A stretch of DNA of 64,000 nt from Candidatus Hinthialibacter antarcticus. Its GTDB lineage: Bacteria > Hinthialibacterota > Hinthialibacteria > Hinthialibacterales > Hinthialibacteraceae. This document shows, piece after piece, positions 24,007-34,560 of this stretch. The notes beneath the pieces are model-generated. The model saw nothing but the letters and a program-made list of their open reading frames with translations. It ran no database searches and was not told where the DNA came from. How positions within the stretch are numbered: the stretch's first letter is position 1; the number at the start of each line of letters is the position of its first letter. The stretch spans positions 124,001 to 188,000 of the forward strand of contig JAVCCE010000011.1 of assembly GCA_030765645.1 (NCBI GenBank), written 5' to 3'. The translations under genes and the position numbers were made by a program.

Positions 24007-25176
24007 TCACTCGTCATAAAACAACGCCATGCTGGCAGTGTGGCCGTGGATGAAGTTTTTTCCGCCGATGGGGCCAATTTCGCCCGCGCAGAAAAATCCT
24101 GAAACCGGCGGCGAATTTAACGCGCTTTGGAGAATACGTAAGTCGTGGTCTTCTTCTGAATACATCCGCATCCCGCGCCCGTTGCATGAAAATACCAACA
24201 CGCCTTTTGGAGGCTGCGGTTGATATTGTTCGAGCATCAAGCGCAGGTCTTCGTCCGCCGTCTCCGCGTCGCGAATATGAAACTGGATGGTCGCGCCGAC
24301 TTGGACGCGGTCCATCACCGCAATCGAGCCATTCTCTTTATCGGCGCCCATCAGGTTGCGGATCAAAAAGTCGCCGCGCACAAATTCTTGTTTGTATTCA
24401 TCAATCACGCGACCAACAAACAGGCCGTGCCCCATCAGTTCCTGGTCGTGCGCAGGCAACACCTTGTACATCTCTTGCACGATGTCTAAGGGCGCGCGTC
24501 CGCCCAGCCCGGTAATCACGTTCTTTTCGCCTTGAGTGATAATGTAGGGCTGCCCAATCGGACGGCAACCTTGCGAGATGACGGTCTCGATGCGTACGCC
24601 GCCTTCGATGCACACGCCAACGCCGCCGTCGTCAATCTGTTCGCCGTTGAGCGACAAAAACGTCCCGCCCGGCGACATCGCGCCGCTGGCCATTCCACCG
24701 ATCAGTGGAACGCCGGGCGCATATTGGTTTAAACCTTCCAACACCTCATTCACGTTTAATGAAAAGGGATCGCCCAGTAAAAACAACGCGCTTTTTTGGG
24801 GATCGCCAATCTGAAAAATGTCGCGCCAGTCGCCTTCATTTTCGGCGTGATGAAGCGACTCCTGCCGGATATGAAACGGTTTGACGTTTGATTGCGGCAA
24901 CTGGGCGAGCCATAGGGCAATCGCAGGCTCGCGCTCATATTCATGCTTAGGGCCAATCACGCTTTCCGCGTTGCATCCGATCAAGCATTTGGCCTGCGTC
25001 ACCTGTTGGATGCGGTCAGCAATCAGCTTGGCTTTGCTGCTAAAATCCGATGATAGAAAAAAAACGCCGAAATCAACGGCGGACGAATCAAGTTGCATCG
25101 ACAACGATTCAAACAGCGTGTCGAGGGCGACTTCAACATTTGGGTCAGAACCGCTGGCGGCGGCGAATTGGGCCAT
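24007..25176 (-). CDS. FIST-domain sensory protein
   Basis: 389 aa with FIST_N and FIST_C domains, which bind small ligands (thought to be amino acids) and are often linked to signal transduction. Typical blocks: VDFGVFFLSSDF, KCLIGCNAESVIG, SALFLLGDPFS, VPLIGGMASGAM, RPIGQPYIITQGEKNVI and, near the C-terminus, GVLVFSCNGRGMRMY...SGFFCAGEIGPIGG. No output domain is fused. ATG 25176 (MAQFAAASG) follows AGGA, so the 22 extra upstream residues are excluded. It lies 46 bp before the GT-C gene on the same strand, without obvious functional link. Confidence 0.88.
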   Translation of the reverse strand: MAQFAAASGSDPNVEVALDTLFESLSMQLDSSAVDFGVFFLSSDFSSKAKLIADRIQQVTQAKCLIGCNAESVIGPKHEYEREPAIALWLAQLPQSNVKPFHIRQESLHHAENEGDWRDIFQIGDPQKSALFLLGDPFSLNVNEVLEGLNQYAPGVPLIGGMASGAMSPGGTFLSLNGEQIDDGGVGVCIEGGVRIETVISQGCRPIGQPYIITQGEKNVITGLGGRAPLDIVQEMYKVLPAHDQELMGHGLFVGRVIDEYKQEFVRGDFLIRNLMGADKENGSIAVMDRVQVGATIQFHIRDAETADEDLRLMLEQYQPQPPKGVLVFSCNGRGMRMYSEEDHDLRILQSALNSPPVSGFFCAGEIGPIGGKNFIHGHTASMALFYDE

Positions 25177-25322
25177 AAGAATCCTCACTCCGTCGTGGGT
25201 TAATAGAAATAACGCGCAGAAGAAAAAATCATGTGAGAACAAAGCCTAGAGGGTTTTCCCTCTCGAAAAAGGGCTGGAACGTGATTGAAAATATTCTCTT
25301 CTTCTAAAACGAACCTGAAAAG

Positions 25323-25356
25323 TTGACGTTGCTGAACGCACCGCCAGTGATACACT
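25323..25356 (+). promoter_or_regulatory. Putative fumC promoter
   Basis: TTGACG at 25323-25328 and TGATACACT at 25348-25356, 40 bp before the fumC ATG, read as a -35 box and an extended -10. The spacing is longer than ideal (about 22 bp), so this is tentative. Confidence 0.35.
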
Positions 25357-25396
25357 ATCCATATCCCTATTTTTGATTGGCAAAAAGGAGAAAGTT

Positions 25397-26788
25397 ATGG
25401 CCTTTCGGGTCGAAAAAGACACCATGGGTGAAGTCCAGGTCCCAGAAGAAGCGTACTACGGCGCCCAGTCAGGACGCTCGCTGATGAACTTCCCCATCGG
25501 CATCGAAACCATGCCGGACGAATTGATTCAAGCCTTCGCCATTCTCAAAAAGGCCTCCGCAATCGTCAACTTTAATCTTGAAGTTCTTCCTGAAGACAAG
25601 AAAGACTTGATCGTCCAAGCGTCGGACGAGATCATCGAAGGAAAACTAGACGGGCACTTCCCGCTTTCCGTCTGGCAAACCGGCAGCGGCACGCAATCAA
25701 ACATGAACGTCAACGAAGTCATTTCAAACCGCGCCAACGAAATCGCTGGACAGCCGCGCGGCACAAAAAGCCCGATTCACCCCAACGACGACGTCAACAA
25801 ATCGCAATCGTCGAACGATACCTTCCCCACCGCGATGCACATTGCGGCGGCGATGCAAATCAATAAGTTGCTAATCCCTGCCGTGAGCAACCTCGCCGAT
25901 ACGCTGCAAACAAAATCTGACGCATTCAAAGACGTCATCAAAATTGGTCGCACGCACTTAATGGACGCAACCCCGCTGACCTTAGGGCAGGAATTTTCCG
26001 GCTACGTCACCCAGTTGCGTCACGGCTTGAAACGAATCGCCAATTCCCTGCCTCATCTCTATGAACTCGCGCTGGGCGGCACCGCCGTCGGCACAGGGCT
26101 GAATACGCCTCCAGGCTACGCCGTCAAAGTGGCGGAAGAAATCGCCCAATTGACGGAACTGCCTTTCGTCAGCGGTGAGAATAAATTTGAAGGGCTGTCC
26201 GCGCACGACGCCATTGTCGAAGCCAGCGGCGCCTTGAAAACGCTGGCGGCGTCGTTGTTCAAAATCGCCAACGACATCCGCTTTTACGCTTCCGGCCCGC
26301 GCTGCGGCATCGGCGAGTTGGACATCCCCGAAAACGAACCCGGCTCCAGCATCATGCCGGGCAAAGTCAACCCGACTCAATGCGAGGCCATGACCCAGGT
26401 CGCCGTACAAGTGATGGGCAATGACGCTGCGATTGGGTTTGCCGGTTCATTGGGCAACTTCCAACTCAATGTCTTCAAACCCGTCATGATCTACAACCTG
26501 CTGCAATCGGTTCGCCTGTTGGGCGACGCCTGTAATGCGTTCAACGACCATTGCGCCGTCGGTATCGAACCCAACCGAGTGAACATCGAAAAGAACCTGA
26601 ACAATTCCCTGATGCTAGTCACGGCGCTGAACACTCACATTGGTTACGACAATGCCGCCAAAATCGCCAAAACCGCGCATAAAGAAGGTCTGACCTTGAA
26701 AGAAACCGCCGTCAAATTGGGCATCCTCACCGAAGAGAAGTTCGATGAAATTGTCCGTCCTGAAAAAATGATCGGCCCCAAAGAATAA
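25397..26788 (+). CDS. fumC: Fumarate hydratase class II
   Basis: 463 aa, usual length. Converts fumarate and malate in the TCA cycle without an iron-sulfur cluster. Motifs: [30 protein letters not shown] (active-site loop), [30 protein letters not shown], and the signature [16 protein letters not shown]. The ATG at 25397 follows AAGGAG with 6-nt spacing; the 8 extra upstream residues in the frame are not needed. It has its own promoter-like site and a terminator, so it is a single-gene transcript. Confidence 0.97.
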
Positions 26789-26852: not shown

Positions 26853-26919
26853 TACCTATGATTATTCTGGATCGTTATTATGGTATTGTTTGAATGGACA
26901 GAAATTTAAGAAATTGATA

Positions 26920-29286
26920 ATGCGTAAATTCAACCACTACATTCATATCCTCTTTTTAATCACGACTGTGGTTCTTTCGGTTCATGGCGCGAGCGAAACC
27001 GCAGAACCGCCGTTGTTTCGCTTTTCAGCAAGAACCGAAGCGGTCAACGAAAAGTCCGCCTATCTCGAATTGAGTTGTATTCTCGCCTTCAACGATCCGG
27101 GCGCATCAATTGAAATGGGATTACAAAACCCGCAAGGCAAGCTGATTGCGGAGAATGCAACCCGTGATTTCATTAGCGACAACTGGTTCCAACAAGCAAA
27201 TATTTCGATCTCTATTGAGAACCCTCAATACTGGAACGCCGAACAACCCAATCTCTATCAACTGAATTTTGTCATCAAACGCAGCGATGGAGAACTGATT
27301 ATTGAACAGCACCGAATTGGATTGGCGGAATACGCCGTCAATGAAAACAAACTCACATGCAACCAAACGCCGATTGTCTTCCAGGGCGTTCAATACTCGC
27401 TCGCGCATCCAACCCGGAGCACGCCCTTCTCAATCGACAATTACCGTGAAGACATCTCACTCATGCAGCAAATGAACTTCAACGCCGTACGCGTCATCGG
27501 CGCGGCGCCGCCTCCTGAATTCACTCAACTCTGCGATGAAATAGGCATGTACGTCCTGATCGACGTCGGAGAAACCGACGCCGCGCCAACCATTCAAACC
27601 TATCAAAACCACCCGAGCGTCTTTGCCTGGAACCTCGATTCCCGAAAGATCGAAACAGACAACCTCGCGGCTGCAATCAAACGAATCAAAAACTTAGATC
27701 GCTCTCATCCGCTCTTGGTTCAATCGGGTTCCATTCGAACGGCGCCTCCACTCGGCGATGGGTTTCTCATCACAAACCCGCCCCGCAATGAATGGCGCTT
27801 TCTTGGGACTTCAACCCGACCGTCACTCGCTTGCGACCTGTTACCCGCGATGGGGCATTCCATTGAAGGCGCGGCTTACTTCTTCGCGATGGCAAGGGCC
27901 AATGCGAGTTTGCGCGGCGGATTCATTCAACAATTCGCCGACATCGCATCAAATGCCGATCCAGCGCCGCTGACGGCGGCGCTGATTGACGACCGCGCCG
28001 CACAACAGCAATGGGCGTTTGGACATGACGGCTTGCTCAACGCCGACCGCACCCCGCAGCCCGATTTTTGGCAAACCCGCCAGGTGTTAAACTGGATCGA
28101 ACTCGAAGAGCGAGAAGTCGAATTTCGCCCCGGCCGCAGCATTGAACTGTCGATCAAAAATTGGCATTCATTCACCAATTTGAATGCGTATGACGCCATT
28201 TGGTTTTTACAAGAAAACGGCGCCGTCATCGAGCAAGGCGAGATGAAAATCAACTTGCCGCCGCAGCGCTCAATGAAAATCGCCGTGCGTCCGCAACACG
28301 CCCAACCCAATCCCGACGCAAACACCTACTTGGTCATGCAGTTACTAAAAGACGGTGAAATTACGTCCGAACATTCGGTGTGGTTAAAGCCGAAATCTTT
28401 CGAACAAGATTTCACCATGCGGCTGCGCGACTTGTCTTGGGACAAAAACTGGACGGTGACGACTGATATTGAAGAATCGCGCATCGACCATCACGACTTT
28501 ATTTTTCACACCCGCACAGACAATTGCGCTTGGTTTCTGCTGGCCCGCGAAGGCAACAGGCGGCTGATTACCGACGGCCCGTTTCTCGACCTCAACCGGA
28601 GCCTCACCCCGCCCGAACGCCTCCACGCCCTTCAATCGGGCGCCGCGCTTCCATGCGAACAAAATGCGCCTCCGTTGCGCGTACTCGAACGCCAGGTCGA
28701 CCGCCGCGGGCCGGATATCGAAATCAAAACTCGCGTCGCCTCGTCAATTCCAGAATGCTCGACTGAAGTCGAAGCGCAAATTGATCTGCTCTCATCGCCC
28801 TACGGCTTTTGCGACGTGCGCTTTTCATTTCACGAAATACAAACCTCGCAAATCATCACAGAAGCAGGCCTGTCGTTTCTCGTCCCTTCGACGCTCGACC
28901 AAATCGGCTGGCTGGGCGACGGGCCTCATCCCGCCTACCCTGGCATGGACCAATTATCCTTGCCCGGGTTCTTCAACCTGAGACCCGTCTCTTCAATCAT
29001 TCCCGGCAACCGTAGGCGAGTACAAGCGTTGCTGCTCACGAATAATGAAGGCGCCGGGCTTGGCGTCTTGCTTTGGGGCGGCGATGTTTCTATCCATCCG
29101 ACACCTGACGGAACCATGGTTCGCATCCAGGCCGCCGTCGCAGGGCGCGGCGACGCAAACGATCCGACCCGCTTCCCCATCCGCCCCGATTCACTCGCAC
29201 AATCGAAGCAATCGACCACATTCAGGCTGGTTCCAATCGGGCCGGGCGCCGCATCGCATTTTTTTCAACCTTGGTTAAAGAAATGA
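26920..29286 (+). CDS. Secreted GH2 beta-galactosidase-like protein with lost catalytic residues
   Basis: 788 aa with a signal peptide (MRKFNHYIHILFLITTVVLSVHG). The order matches LacZ-type GH2: sandwich domain with PQYWNAEQPNLYQL, TIM barrel with REDISLMQQMNFNAVRV and LCDEIGMYVL, then a Bgal-small-N-like domain with QIGWLGDGPHPAYPG and LLTNNEGAGLGVL. The catalytic sites are altered. The acid/base region, N-E in LacZ (WSLGNE), is WNLDSR here, and the nucleophile region CEYAHAMGNS is CDLLPAMGHS. The substrate loop CSHYPN is VIGAAPP. It may bind sugar rather than cleave it. ATG 26920 opens the signal peptide; the TTG 30 bp upstream is rejected. Confidence 0.8.
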   Translation: MRKFNHYIHILFLITTVVLSVHGASETAEPPLFRFSARTEAVNEKSAYLELSCILAFNDPGASIEMGLQNPQGKLIAENATRDFISDNWFQQANISISIENPQYWNAEQPNLYQLNFVIKRSDGELIIEQHRIGLAEYAVNENKLTCNQTPIVFQGVQYSLAHPTRSTPFSIDNYREDISLMQQMNFNAVRVIGAAPPPEFTQLCDEIGMYVLIDVGETDAAPTIQTYQNHPSVFAWNLDSRKIETDNLAAAIKRIKNLDRSHPLLVQSGSIRTAPPLGDGFLITNPPRNEWRFLGTSTRPSLACDLLPAMGHSIEGAAYFFAMARANASLRGGFIQQFADIASNADPAPLTAALIDDRAAQQQWAFGHDGLLNADRTPQPDFWQTRQVLNWIELEEREVEFRPGRSIELSIKNWHSFTNLNAYDAIWFLQENGAVIEQGEMKINLPPQRSMKIAVRPQHAQPNPDANTYLVMQLLKDGEITSEHSVWLKPKSFEQDFTMRLRDLSWDKNWTVTTDIEESRIDHHDFIFHTRTDNCAWFLLAREGNRRLITDGPFLDLNRSLTPPERLHALQSGAALPCEQNAPPLRVLERQVDRRGPDIEIKTRVASSIPECSTEVEAQIDLLSSPYGFCDVRFSFHEIQTSQIITEAGLSFLVPSTLDQIGWLGDGPHPAYPGMDQLSLPGFFNLRPVSSIIPGNRRRVQALLLTNNEGAGLGVLLWGGDVSIHPTPDGTMVRIQAAVAGRGDANDPTRFPIRPDSLAQSKQSTTFRLVPIGPGAASHFFQPWLKK

Positions 29287-29358
29287 GTAGAAAAAAACGT
29301 ATAATTTTTATAAAATGAGCTCAGCTCATTCATAAATAACATCTGGAGGTAGGGATTC

Positions 29359-29895
29359 ATGGTTTCAACGAAGTGGTTTCGGTATGGTATTTTAGCGTTG
29401 TTTTTGGCAGCCCCGTTCAGCGCGTTGGCGCAAGATGAGCCTCAATTGCCGCTGACGTGGGAAGGCGAAGGCGTAACCTGGTATATTGAAGATGGAGAAA
29501 TTGGCAAAGATAACTTTGACATCTCCTTCAAAATCGACTCAGACGGCTGGGTGACCGGAAAAGCGACAACCGATGAAGGCACGGCAAAATTGCAGAGGTT
29601 TTATTATACCACCCAGGATAACGGCGTCCGTATGATCGTGATTGCCTTGGTGTCTGACGATGAAGACGCGCCCCTGCTTTTCTTGATGAAAGGCAAAGTG
29701 ATCCAAGGCAAACTCTTCGTCGGCGAAGTCTACGCGAAGGCCTATGAAAAAGACGGAAAGGTCGAAAGCGACCTCTATTTGGGCAGCAACTCCGCAGTGG
29801 AGATCACCGAAGAATACATGCCCAGTAGCCTCAAAAGCGCTTTCTGGAACAGCAAACTGCTTGGCGGTTTCAAAGTAGAAGGCGGCATCAAATAA
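29359..29895 (+). CDS. Small secreted protein of unknown function
   Basis: 178 aa with a clear signal peptide (WFRYGILALFLAAPFSALAQ, cleavage near residue 25). The mature part has about 150 residues with alternating beta-strand-like segments and many acidic residues (ITEEYMP, DSDGWVTGKATTDEGT). I recognise no family. It may be a beta-barrel or lipocalin-like fold, but this is a guess. GGAGGTAGGG lies upstream of the ATG, and a terminator follows, so it is expressed on its own. Confidence 0.75.
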   Translation: MVSTKWFRYGILALFLAAPFSALAQDEPQLPLTWEGEGVTWYIEDGEIGKDNFDISFKIDSDGWVTGKATTDEGTAKLQRFYYTTQDNGVRMIVIALVSDDEDAPLLFLMKGKVIQGKLFVGEVYAKAYEKDGKVESDLYLGSNSAVEITEEYMPSSLKSAFWNSKLLGGFKVEGGIK

Positions 29896-29916: not shown

Positions 29917-29953
29917 AACGGCCCGTCCAATTTTTGGCGGGCCGTTTTTTTTT
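29917..29953 (+). terminator. Rho-independent terminator
   Basis: Stem aacggcccg / cgggccgtt (9 bp) with a 12-nt loop, then eight or more T. Confidence 0.9.
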
Positions 29954-32325: not shown

Positions 32326-33237
32326 CTAGGCGTTTAAGGCGCGGGTGAGGCGGTCTGATGTGTCGTCAACATGCGCAACTTCGGTCATACCGACCGTCAT
32401 CGCGTCAACCAGATCGTTGCCTGCAACGTATTTCATCGAGGCGTCTTTTTCTTCGGATTTAATCAATGTACCTTCTCCGAAAATTTTCATTCCAACCACC
32501 GCCTTGCCGTTGGCGCGCGCGGTTTTAATTACTTCGGTCACTTCTTCGACAGTCCCGTCCATTTTATATTTTCTGCCGCCCATGTGGTTAATGCGGGCAA
32601 AGATGACGTCTGTCCAGGGGTCGCTGGCAGCGACTTTCAGGCCGCCGAGATCATGGCACGAAACGCCGACGGCGCGGACCACGCCCTTCTCTTTCATTTT
32701 GGCGAGACCTTCGCGAACGCCCTCTAATTCTTTTGTCCACTGGTCGTTGGTAATGCAATGGATCAAGCACACATCCAAATAGTCTGTGCCGAGTTCTTTG
32801 CAATAGCGCTCCACTTCTTCGGCCCCGCTGCTTGACGGTTTGTTCCAATCGGCTTCGCGGAACCACAACTTGGAGAGCATGACATACTCATCGCGGGGCA
32901 GTTCTTTCAGGGCGTTTCTGACAAACGGGTGCGTCCCATAGAGGTCGGCCATGTCGTAGAAGTTTAAGCCTTTTTCAAAACCATGGCGAAAAATCTGGTT
33001 GCATTTTTCTTGTCCCATGCGGGTGTGTTCTGACTCACGGGCGCCGCCTCTCATGCCGGTGCCTTGCGCAAGACGCGAGACCTTGATGCCTGTCTTGCCC
33101 AGTTCAACGCGATCAAACGCATCCCGCTTGGCTTTGGGTTTCGCTTCCGCCGCCTGGCCTAGTGATGGAGAAGCCAAGATCGCTCCGGCCCCGGCAAGCG
33201 ACCGGTTTAAAAAACTCCGTCTGGAAATATCACTCAT
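32326..33237 (-). CDS. Tat-exported aldo/keto reductase
   Basis: 303 aa. The N-terminus is a twin-arginine signal (SDISRRSFLNRSLAGAGAIL..ASPSLGQAA), so it is predicted to be exported folded to the periplasm. The body is an aldo/keto reductase TIM barrel: VELGKTGIKVSRL, GLNFYDMADLYGTH (with the catalytic Asp and Tyr), VMLSKLWF (Lys), LDVCLIHCI and GVVRAVGVSCHD. NADPH-dependent reduction of an aldehyde or ketone of sugar is the likely reaction, but how NADPH is supplied outside is unclear. ATG 33237 has GAGGAGG; the upstream ATG is not used. Confidence 0.88.
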   Translation of the reverse strand: MSDISRRSFLNRSLAGAGAILASPSLGQAAEAKPKAKRDAFDRVELGKTGIKVSRLAQGTGMRGGARESEHTRMGQEKCNQIFRHGFEKGLNFYDMADLYGTHPFVRNALKELPRDEYVMLSKLWFREADWNKPSSSGAEEVERYCKELGTDYLDVCLIHCITNDQWTKELEGVREGLAKMKEKGVVRAVGVSCHDLGGLKVAASDPWTDVIFARINHMGGRKYKMDGTVEEVTEVIKTARANGKAVVGMKIFGEGTLIKSEEKDASMKYVAGNDLVDAMTVGMTEVAHVDDTSDRLTRALNA

Positions 33238-33405
33238 GCCAACCTCCTCAGGGTTCAATTAAAAATTGTTTCGCATAAATTCACACAAACGATGACGGCA
33301 AGCCATATTGGGGTTGGTCGTTTCGCTATGCGTGGATGTTCCGGCTTTTCGTTTCGATTGTAATGCGATATCTTACCATATCTCTATTGTAACGAGGAAA
33401 CCACA

Positions 33406-34560
33406 ATGAAACAAATCACATTTGCCCTCACCCTTCTATTTCTTTTTGGAGCATTCGCGAACAACGGCGTCTCCCAAACCACAACCCACTCACTCTTCAA
33501 TGGCAACGACCTAACAGGTTGGTCGGGCGTCAATAAAACCGAGTTTGGCGTTGAAGACGGCGTCATGCAATTAAAAAGCGGGATGGGTTGGCTTCGCACC
33601 GACCAAGTCTTTGACGATTTCATTTTAGAATTTGAATGTAAACCGTTGGTCGAAAATTATGACAGCGGCCTGTTCTTCCGCTCCAGCCTCGACGGCGAGC
33701 CTTGGCCGAACAAAGGGTTTCAGGTCAATTTAAAGTTCAATGGCTTCGGAACCTTGGTGCGCGGCTATCAAGCCATGATCCCCAGCGAACATCCTCCCGT
33801 CAAAGTCGGCGAATGGGCAAAGTTCCGTTTGGTCTCACAAGGCGAAGACGCATCGCTGCAAATTGACGGCAAAGACGTTTGGGAAGCCGACTTCATTGAA
33901 CCGGAAATCGGCCTCATCGGCATCCAGGCCGAAGACCGCGCGTTTGAATTTCGCAATTTCAATATCAAAGAAACCGGTTACGTCAATCTGCTTGAAGGCG
34001 AAGGCCGTGACTTCAAACATCTGCAAGTCCACCAGGGGTCGCAAGAGGCCTGGCATATTGACGAAGACGGCGTCTTAGTCTGCGACGGCGGAGGCGGTGG
34101 TTGGATCGGCACCAAAACAGACGATTATGGCGACTTCGTTTTTAAATTTGATTTCTGGGTTCCGAAAGAAGGAAACAGCGGCATCTATATTCGCCGCCCC
34201 AAAGAGGGCGACGGCGCCTATACCGCGATGGAAATTCAGATCATCGACGATGACGCCAAACACTGGGGCGAACTGCAAGAATGGCAAAAATGCGGTTCTA
34301 TCTATCACGAAGTGACCCCGTCCGTCCGCGCAACCCGGGAAGCGGGCCAATGGCAAACCATGGCCATCATCTGCAACGACAACGAGATCGACATCTATAT
34401 CAACGGCGTCCAAATCACCGACGCTGACTTGGACGAATACACAACCTCAACCACCAGCGCTAAGCCATTGAAAGAGCGCCCACGAGTTGGGTATTTAGGG
34501 TTCCAGAATTACGACGGGATGATTAAGTACCGCAATGCGTTCGTTAAACGGTTGAATTAG
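33406..34560 (+). CDS. Secreted protein with two tandem DUF1080 (3-keto-disaccharide hydrolase) domains
   Basis: 384 aa with a signal peptide (MKQITFALTLLFLFGAFANNGVS). Two DUF1080 jelly-roll domains are seen. Domain 1 is about 28-192 (SLFNGNDLTGWSGV, WLRTDQVFDDFIL, DSGLFFRSS, GEWAKFRLVSQG, FEFRNFNIK). Domain 2 is about 195-384 (GSQEAWHIDEDGVLVCDG, FKFDFWVPKEGNSGIYIRRP, EAGQWQTMAIICND, LGFQNYDG). These domains are common in Planctomycetes-like genomes and act on oxidised disaccharides. Start: GAGGA box ahead of ATG 33406. It is preceded by a divergent aldo/keto reductase, both sugar-related. Confidence 0.92.
   Translation: MKQITFALTLLFLFGAFANNGVSQTTTHSLFNGNDLTGWSGVNKTEFGVEDGVMQLKSGMGWLRTDQVFDDFILEFECKPLVENYDSGLFFRSSLDGEPWPNKGFQVNLKFNGFGTLVRGYQAMIPSEHPPVKVGEWAKFRLVSQGEDASLQIDGKDVWEADFIEPEIGLIGIQAEDRAFEFRNFNIKETGYVNLLEGEGRDFKHLQVHQGSQEAWHIDEDGVLVCDGGGGGWIGTKTDDYGDFVFKFDFWVPKEGNSGIYIRRPKEGDGAYTAMEIQIIDDDAKHWGELQEWQKCGSIYHEVTPSVRATREAGQWQTMAIICNDNEIDIYINGVQITDADLDEYTTSTTSAKPLKERPRVGYLGFQNYDGMIKYRNAFVKRLN

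Follow-up and report, generated by a model that had tools for sequence, protein, structure and literature searches.

The analysed window, a stretch of 64,000 nucleotides from Candidatus Hinthialibacter antarcticus (contig JAVCCE010000011.1), harbours a gene for a predicted exported protein related to E. coli β-galactosidase LacZ, here referred to as the target or pseudo-LacZ. Upstream of it lie a FIST-domain gene and a fumarase gene (window positions 24007-26788), while a second gene for a small exported protein follows directly downstream. The features relevant to the following discussion are:

26920 to 29286, plus strand: pseudo-LacZ coding sequence, 788 amino acids plus stop, with an ATG start; a TTG at 26890 is an alternative start
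26920 to 26991, plus strand: predicted signal peptide of about 24 amino acids (hydrophobic N-terminus, cleavage site assigned by eye)
27034 to 27321, plus strand: Ig-like LacZ domain 2, about residues 39-134 (Pfam Glyco_hydro_2, E 2.3e-8)
27328 to 28119, plus strand: shortened TIM barrel, about residues 137-400 (Pfam and AlphaFold model), less conserved in the clade than domain 5
27628 to 27645, plus strand: acid/base motif W237-N-L-D-S-R242, with Arg242 at the position of LacZ Glu461 (phmmer and 18-protein alignments)
27835 to 27837, plus strand: nucleophile position, with Asp306 in place of LacZ Glu537 (phmmer and 18-protein alignments)
28120 to 28404, plus strand: LacZ domain 4, about residues 401-495 (Pfam LacZ_4 at 410-471, E 2.7e-9)
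28405 to 29283, plus strand: LacZ domain 5 super-sandwich, about residues 496-788 (assigned by fold), the most conserved part in the clade
29359 to 29895, plus strand: small exported protein of 178 amino acids without Pfam family, a predicted β-barrel and likely partner, starting 72 nt after the pseudo-LacZ stop
29917 to 29946, plus strand: terminator-like hairpin of 11 pairs, 8 of them G-C, followed by a T run (pattern match)

Fold and domain architecture

The description of the protein as secreted and LacZ-like, given in an initial annotation made from the DNA alone, is borne out by LacZ homology in sequence as well as in an AlphaFold model, the hydrophobic N-terminal signal having been judged by eye; in the model, the N-terminus (residues 3-23) forms a helix of low confidence. 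The best phmmer match in the PDB is E. coli β-galactosidase (3vd5, E 6.7e-30), and LacZ-type NCBIfam models match down to E 1.5e-49, yet far below their cut-offs. The model, built from ten aligned sequences, has a mean pLDDT of 80.6 and a pTM of 0.79. Its top Foldseek matches are β-galactosidases (6sd0 from T. maritima, 2.4e-47; 6cvm from E. coli, 1.1e-46), and the top row of VIA-align 2 is the Arthrobacter β-galactosidase 6sec (Z 34.1, 3.0 Å over 668). The comparison with LacZ that had been proposed as a check gave Z 31.5 for E. coli LacZ 6drv (3.4 Å over 703 residues, starting from LacZ residue 211), with domains 2-5 fitting. A chance resemblance to LacZ is ruled out by these Pfam, phmmer and structural matches.

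The GH2 domain order, in contrast, is not intact as had been assumed: the N-terminal jelly roll is gone, the barrel lacks the stretch following strand 3, and Bgal_small_N stays under its sequence cut-off. Domain 2, the TIM barrel and domain 4 of the GH2 LacZ type are present by Pfam matches above cut-off and by fold. For Bgal_small_N, E is 0.0039 with 17.3 bits versus a cut-off of 25, and domain 5 is present by fold. The barrel is matched in two Pfam stretches (joint E 1.3e-22) which cover only positions 2-76 and 117-300 of the GH2_C model; hence, the region of LacZ Glu416/His418 after strand 3 is deleted. For the GH2N jelly roll no Pfam match was obtained in the target, and the structural alignment to E. 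coli LacZ begins at about LacZ residue 208 in most rows. As the structural alignments thus start at around LacZ residues 208-211, domains 2-5 are present and domain 1 is absent, although two N-terminal β-sandwich domains are described as common to all GH2 architectures (PMC5145203). That a mis-called start hides the jelly roll upstream can be rejected, because the gap between the fumarase stop and the target ATG is no longer than 131 nt.

Catalytic site and relatives

In the phmmer alignment with 3vd5, the N460S variant of E. coli LacZ, WSLGSE is paired with WNLDSR of the target and CEYAHAMGNS with CDLLPAMGHS. The initial annotation had correctly noticed that WNLDSR replaces W-x-L-G-N-E, WSLGNE in LacZ, in the acid/base region; to this must be added the correction that the acid/base position itself is occupied by Arg242. 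Glu461 is the acid/base of LacZ, and in this fold class acid/base and nucleophile are located at the ends of barrel strands 4 and 7. In the AlphaFold model, Arg242 is found two residues past strand 4 (234-240) and Asp306 directly past strand 7 (302-305). Asp306 falls into the column of Glu537, which is identified as the LacZ nucleophile in the title of Gebler et al. (1992), and the proposed replacement of the nucleophile Glu by Asp therefore holds. The substrate-binding region is likewise altered as suggested, with six pocket residues changed (LacZ His357, His391, Asn460, Tyr503, His540 and Trp568) and Arg388 kept. Glu416/His418, the metal-site stretch of LacZ, and Trp999 are absent from the target, but also from five more distant relatives (L074-L078) which keep the catalytic pair. 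Other Glu and Asp residues exist in the target barrel, none of them a Glu at the end of strand 4 or strand 7. A Glu pair concealed by a faulty alignment, named at the outset as the way in which the assignment could fail, was looked for in the strand positions of the model and in the columns of 18 aligned proteins; none was found at the ends of strands 4 and 7, and this possibility is rejected.

This 18-protein alignment comprises six proteins from the target's family (the clade), three from a sister family (f2), L074-L078 from elsewhere and four LacZ sequences; L009, the clade protein of genome G004, is one residue short at its end here and in alignments A1 and A2. L074-L078 are called active relatives for keeping both Glu residues, their activity being predicted from sequence. 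In the nucleophile column the six clade proteins carry D, N, D, A, S and G, hence no Glu at all, while Glu is found in all five active relatives and all four LacZ proteins and Ala in 3/3 f2 proteins; altogether, the nucleophile position is without Glu in the nine aligned proteins of the order. The acid/base column of the clade reads R, E, T, C, Q and G (one Glu in six), whereas all 12 non-clade proteins have Glu. The survey of homologues thus identifies the loss as a trait of the whole clade, not a peculiarity of a single genome. L009, the closest homologue of the target, has its acid/base Glu in an altered motif, WIVDPES, and Asn as nucleophile residue. A motif W-x(1-4)-N-E was found in 24 of 29 GH2 loci of the phylum, a count too crude to serve as a control: at least two matches (L002, L067) are probably spurious, L001 and L056 represent the same gene, and the f2 loci contribute three of the genes. 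Without the nucleophile, the acid/base and a large part of the sugar pocket, the target should be unable to perform the LacZ double displacement. Judged from sequence, LacZ catalysis has very probably been lost, and the protein would not be expected to act as a hydrolase in practice.

A protein search of 61 genomes (the target's own and 60 relatives) returned strong homologues from all five further genomes of the target's family, sharing 33-42% identity with the target and in one case split into two pieces. All six family genomes contain one full-length open frame without internal stops. In a profile search of 14 genomes of the phylum, a family match was obtained in 6/6 family genomes, a weaker whole-length relative in 3/3 genomes of f2; the remaining five gave nothing beyond general GH2 matches. 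When 386 genomes were searched with domain 5, scoring up to six candidates per genome, more than 460 bits were reached in the six family genomes only, with others at no more than 62 bits among the matches listed. Two motifs of domain 5 were used to scan 84,980 species genomes, a method that can miss members; nine loci were obtained, four of them clade members (RI_285, SURF_12, Ch114 and Zod_Metabat.949) and five others. Three of these four are labelled Omnitrophota; the OLB16/SURF_12 lineage is reported to have been misclassified as Omnitrophica (PMC10066038), and OLB16 is treated in a review as the same lineage as Ca. Hinthialibacterota, for which Urusiota is another name (PMC11382960). Taken together, these links would place the window in this phylum. 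No relatives emerged from the 19 stretches of a genome-contig search with the single target protein or from the five stretches of a viral-contig search with domain 5, and plasmid tblastn gave distant GH2 proteins (21-23% identity in the best rows). LacZ paralogues with a full catalytic set are encoded elsewhere in the target's genome, and also in G004 and G001.

In the phylogenetic tree, the six clade proteins form one branch (support 100/100). The f2 proteins are placed outside active relatives plus clade (87/98, a fork that is unresolved by the program's rule), hence their nucleophile loss may be a separate one. A tree constrained to unite the clade with f2 is worse by 11.9 log units (AU p 0.0405); two separate losses of the nucleophile are therefore favoured, though not firmly shown, and a single common loss is weakly disfavoured. 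The f2 loci L014 (G008), L015 (G007) and L016 (G006) encode exported-looking GH2 proteins and represent a natural nucleophile-less glycosidase scaffold. The jelly roll, in turn, is absent from three clade proteins (target, G003, G005) and present in the other three, including G004, the sister of the target with 100/100 support. If regain is barred, this distribution requires three losses on the tree, while bare parsimony gives two changes; in G005, what looks like a remainder of the first jelly-roll strand is still present.

Conservation, neighbouring genes and possible function

Sequence conservation is inverted in the clade. In the barrel, mean pairwise identity amounts to 33.4% for the clade (15 pairs), 54.7% for the active relatives (10 pairs) and 57.6% for LacZ (6 pairs); the corresponding values for domain 5 are 41.3%, 34.5% and 30.9%. 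Domain 5 exceeds the barrel in 13/15 clade pairs, the inversion not being seen in the other two, but in 0/10 pairs of active relatives and 0/6 LacZ pairs; among the f2 proteins, which are nearly alike, it does so in two of three pairs, the two parts differing by no more than 1.2 points. For this inversion, a Mann-Whitney p of 2e-6 was obtained, which overstates the certainty because the pairs share sequences (six clade proteins on one tree). When clade proteins are compared with active relatives, identity is higher in the barrel than in domain 5 (31.0% versus 23.9%): domain 5 diverged from that of the ancestor and was then held. Accordingly distributed are the positions invariant in the clade and not in the active relatives (39 of 59 in domain 5, 9 in the barrel) and those invariant in the active relatives and not in the clade (72 of 112 in the barrel). 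Clade-only invariant residues of domain 5 include R501, D504, W538, R548, Q620, D622, S626 and R634. Several polar ones alternate on neighbouring predicted strands (Q620, D622 and S626 on 616-626; D632 and R634 on 630-637), as would be expected of one exposed face if the modelled strands are correct. The clade proteins are too diverged for dN/dS, while whole-gene values of 0.10-0.14 in f2 point to purifying selection on a nucleophile-less relative. As conservation is inverted from barrel to domain 5, the target gene is not decaying. The earlier reading of the 788-codon frame as a maintained one can be endorsed: it runs without stops from the ATG at 26920 to the stop at 29286, homologues occur in 5/5 other genomes of the family, and domain 5 is constrained. 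That its function is maintained is almost certain; that this function has been relocated to domains 4-5 is probable to a lesser degree.

The small barrel protein encoded downstream has homologues in 6/6 family genomes and in one of the eight other genomes of the phylum. Its gene directly follows the pseudo-LacZ gene in four of the six (target, G004, G002, G005); in G003 and G001 the homologues are located on other contigs, and the contigs carrying the pseudo-LacZ gene end about 0.6 and 1.0 kb after it. A model based on three sequences (pLDDT 78.4) consists of nearly all β-strands plus one helix. Its best VIA-align rows are β-barrels of several kinds, including avidin-like ones (Z 9-11), which would indicate a fold class only; no Foldseek match below E 0.001 and no match in a PDB profile search with the family were obtained. 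No terminator-like hairpin was found between the two genes on the plus strand, such sites numbering 5 in the region versus 5.9 expected from shuffles, and a promoter-like match at 29288-29316 between the genes belongs to a class no more frequent in the region than chance expects. The small barrel protein probably works together with the pseudo-LacZ, and the two may be co-transcribed and in physical contact. One paralogue from the target's own genome (L093 / L125, on C28) carries a fused 3-keto-disaccharide hydrolase domain, with Gfo/Idh/MocA oxidoreductase, β-helix and weakly GHL6-like genes in its vicinity, and around others, genes for apiosidase-like, CBM9 and dockerin proteins are found. 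These surroundings stem from a scan of 20 of the 45 neighbouring frames listed at seven loci, the 20 being selected by eye, and many of the matches are unrelated to carbohydrates; a glycan link of the family is plausible, not shown. At the paralogues L121 (4566-6028) and L123 (4520-5931), a gene for a sigma-70-like factor follows, and the genes beyond these factors share 48% identity over 287 amino acids, the one scanned being without Pfam family. The other neighbours of the target (FIST, fumarase, Nudix) form no glycan-utilisation cluster. A FIST gene near the homologue in L072 and a fumarase gene near that in L071 indicate that parts of the neighbourhood are old. A few kb downstream, an aldo/keto reductase and a 3-keto-disaccharide hydrolase are encoded (window 32326-34560).

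Taken together, we favour, with moderate confidence, the interpretation of the target as a non-hydrolytic, exported binding or scaffold pseudoenzyme derived from a GH2 LacZ-type glycosidase, whose function resides in domains 4-5 in conjunction with the small barrel. The protein displays homology to active enzymes with loss of the catalytic residues and is kept by selection (6/6 genomes), as expected of a pseudoenzyme. The TIM barrel would persist as structural core, selection would act on a function of domains 4-5, for which binding of a glycan or of a protein partner is most likely, and the small exported β-barrel encoded 72 nt downstream would probably act together with them. Against this interpretation stand one clade member (G004) that retains the acid/base Glu, the two clade pairs without inversion, the two genomes in which no small barrel gene was seen beside the pseudo-LacZ gene, the promoter-like match between the two genes, the lack of a glycan-utilisation cluster among the other neighbours, and a dead GH26 relative that did not bind any glycan tested.

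Three alternatives place the function elsewhere or deny it. The old barrel pocket might serve as lectin site of a glycan-binding or regulatory protein without hydrolysis, and inactive glycosidase relatives that bind through the old active site do occur in other families. Pocket-lining residues, however, vary from member to member in the clade and the jelly roll is lost in 3/6, which renders this improbable. Alternatively, the barrel could still be an enzyme, for instance with a catalytic pair moved to Glu316 and Asp341 or with Asp306 as weak nucleophile. Glu316, located just before the helix after strand 7, is invariant in all six clade proteins and Glu in none of the 12 others aligned, Asp341 after strand 8 is invariant in 18/18 proteins, and by model secondary structure both follow barrel strands on the active-site face. 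Yet domain 5 is better conserved in the clade than the barrel, the loop that follows strand 8 is of very variable length, many pocket residues are gone, and Asp occupies the nucleophile column in only 2/6, so that a working barrel is considered quite improbable. Finally, ordinary decay of an unused lacZ, consistent with the repeated loss of the N-terminal domain (absent in 3/6), is rejected as highly unlikely in view of full-length open frames in 6/6 genomes at 33-42% identity to the target, a domain 5 more conserved than in working relatives, a GC3 of 0.61 close to the 0.61-0.68 of neighbouring genes, and the low dN/dS of f2.

Under the preferred reading as an exported binding or scaffold pseudoenzyme, ligand binding would take place at domain 5. 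A glycan as ligand can be put forward only tentatively. The most far-reaching version, in which LacZ turned into an exported glycan receptor or scaffold with the domain 5 super-sandwich as its working site, acting in combination with a new family of small exported β-barrels, the TIM barrel only as frame and the sugar-binding jelly roll repeatedly shed, is speculative and, taken as a whole, rather unlikely.

Comparison with known systems

Dead glycosidase relatives as such are already known, and the new aspect is a LacZ case that extends over a whole clade. In the literature searched by titles and abstract beginnings, a scope largely outside subscription papers, no report of a catalytically dead LacZ family was found, and a term search of the main text of a GH2 subfamily survey (PMC12243196) gave no occurrence of the word "inactive". 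Family-level annotation would label the target and its relatives GH2 enzymes or β-galactosidases and thus ascribe to the bacteria an activity of which, by the known mechanism, the proteins should not be capable. At the same time, a natural series is available, from both Glu residues elsewhere via nucleophile-only loss in f2 to full loss in the family and jelly-roll loss in half of it, which allows the step from enzyme to non-enzyme to be tested on one of the best-studied folds, while the inverted conservation indicates where to seek the new function.

With E. coli LacZ and GH2 proteins containing Bgal_small_N, the target shares the fold of domains 2-5 and the LacZ_4 and GH2_C signatures; compared with E. 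coli LacZ, it is without jelly roll, catalytic Glu pair, Glu416/His418 stretch and Trp999. The nearest relatives found outside the order are L074-L078 (from Prolixibacteraceae, KSB1, two Phycisphaerae/Phycisphaerales MAGs and one unclassified source), exported-looking GH2 proteins which share W-L-G-(D/N)-G-P-Y-P-(S/A)-Y-P, a motif used in the search, and G-N-R-x-x-V with the clade in domain 5. Unlike the target, all five retain both catalytic Glu residues, and the jelly roll is present. Within the order, the full-length f2 proteins (G006, G007, G008) resemble the clade in lacking the nucleophile (Ala in 3/3), whereas their acid/base Glu and jelly roll are kept.

The closest published parallel found comes from another GH family and is GH26B of Segatella copri, a secreted protein without catalytic Glu that was confirmed to leave β-mannosides uncleaved, did not bind any tested glycan, and is speculated by its authors to be a binding protein (PMC12704710). 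In contrast to the clade, GH26B is a single protein and sits in a glycan-utilisation locus. It follows from this precedent that the kind is already known and that the ligand of such proteins may be hard to find. Pneumococcal BgaA, a β-galactosidase, is reported as an adhesin (PMC3167885); in contrast to the target, BgaA is an exoglycosidase. Chitinase-like proteins and Klotho have kept the glycosidase fold after loss of catalytic residues. Beetle polygalacturonases provide a further case of glycosidase-derived pseudoenzymes (PMC6549527). These pseudoenzymes belong to other folds or families; in the target, the surface under selection seems to have shifted to an accessory domain.
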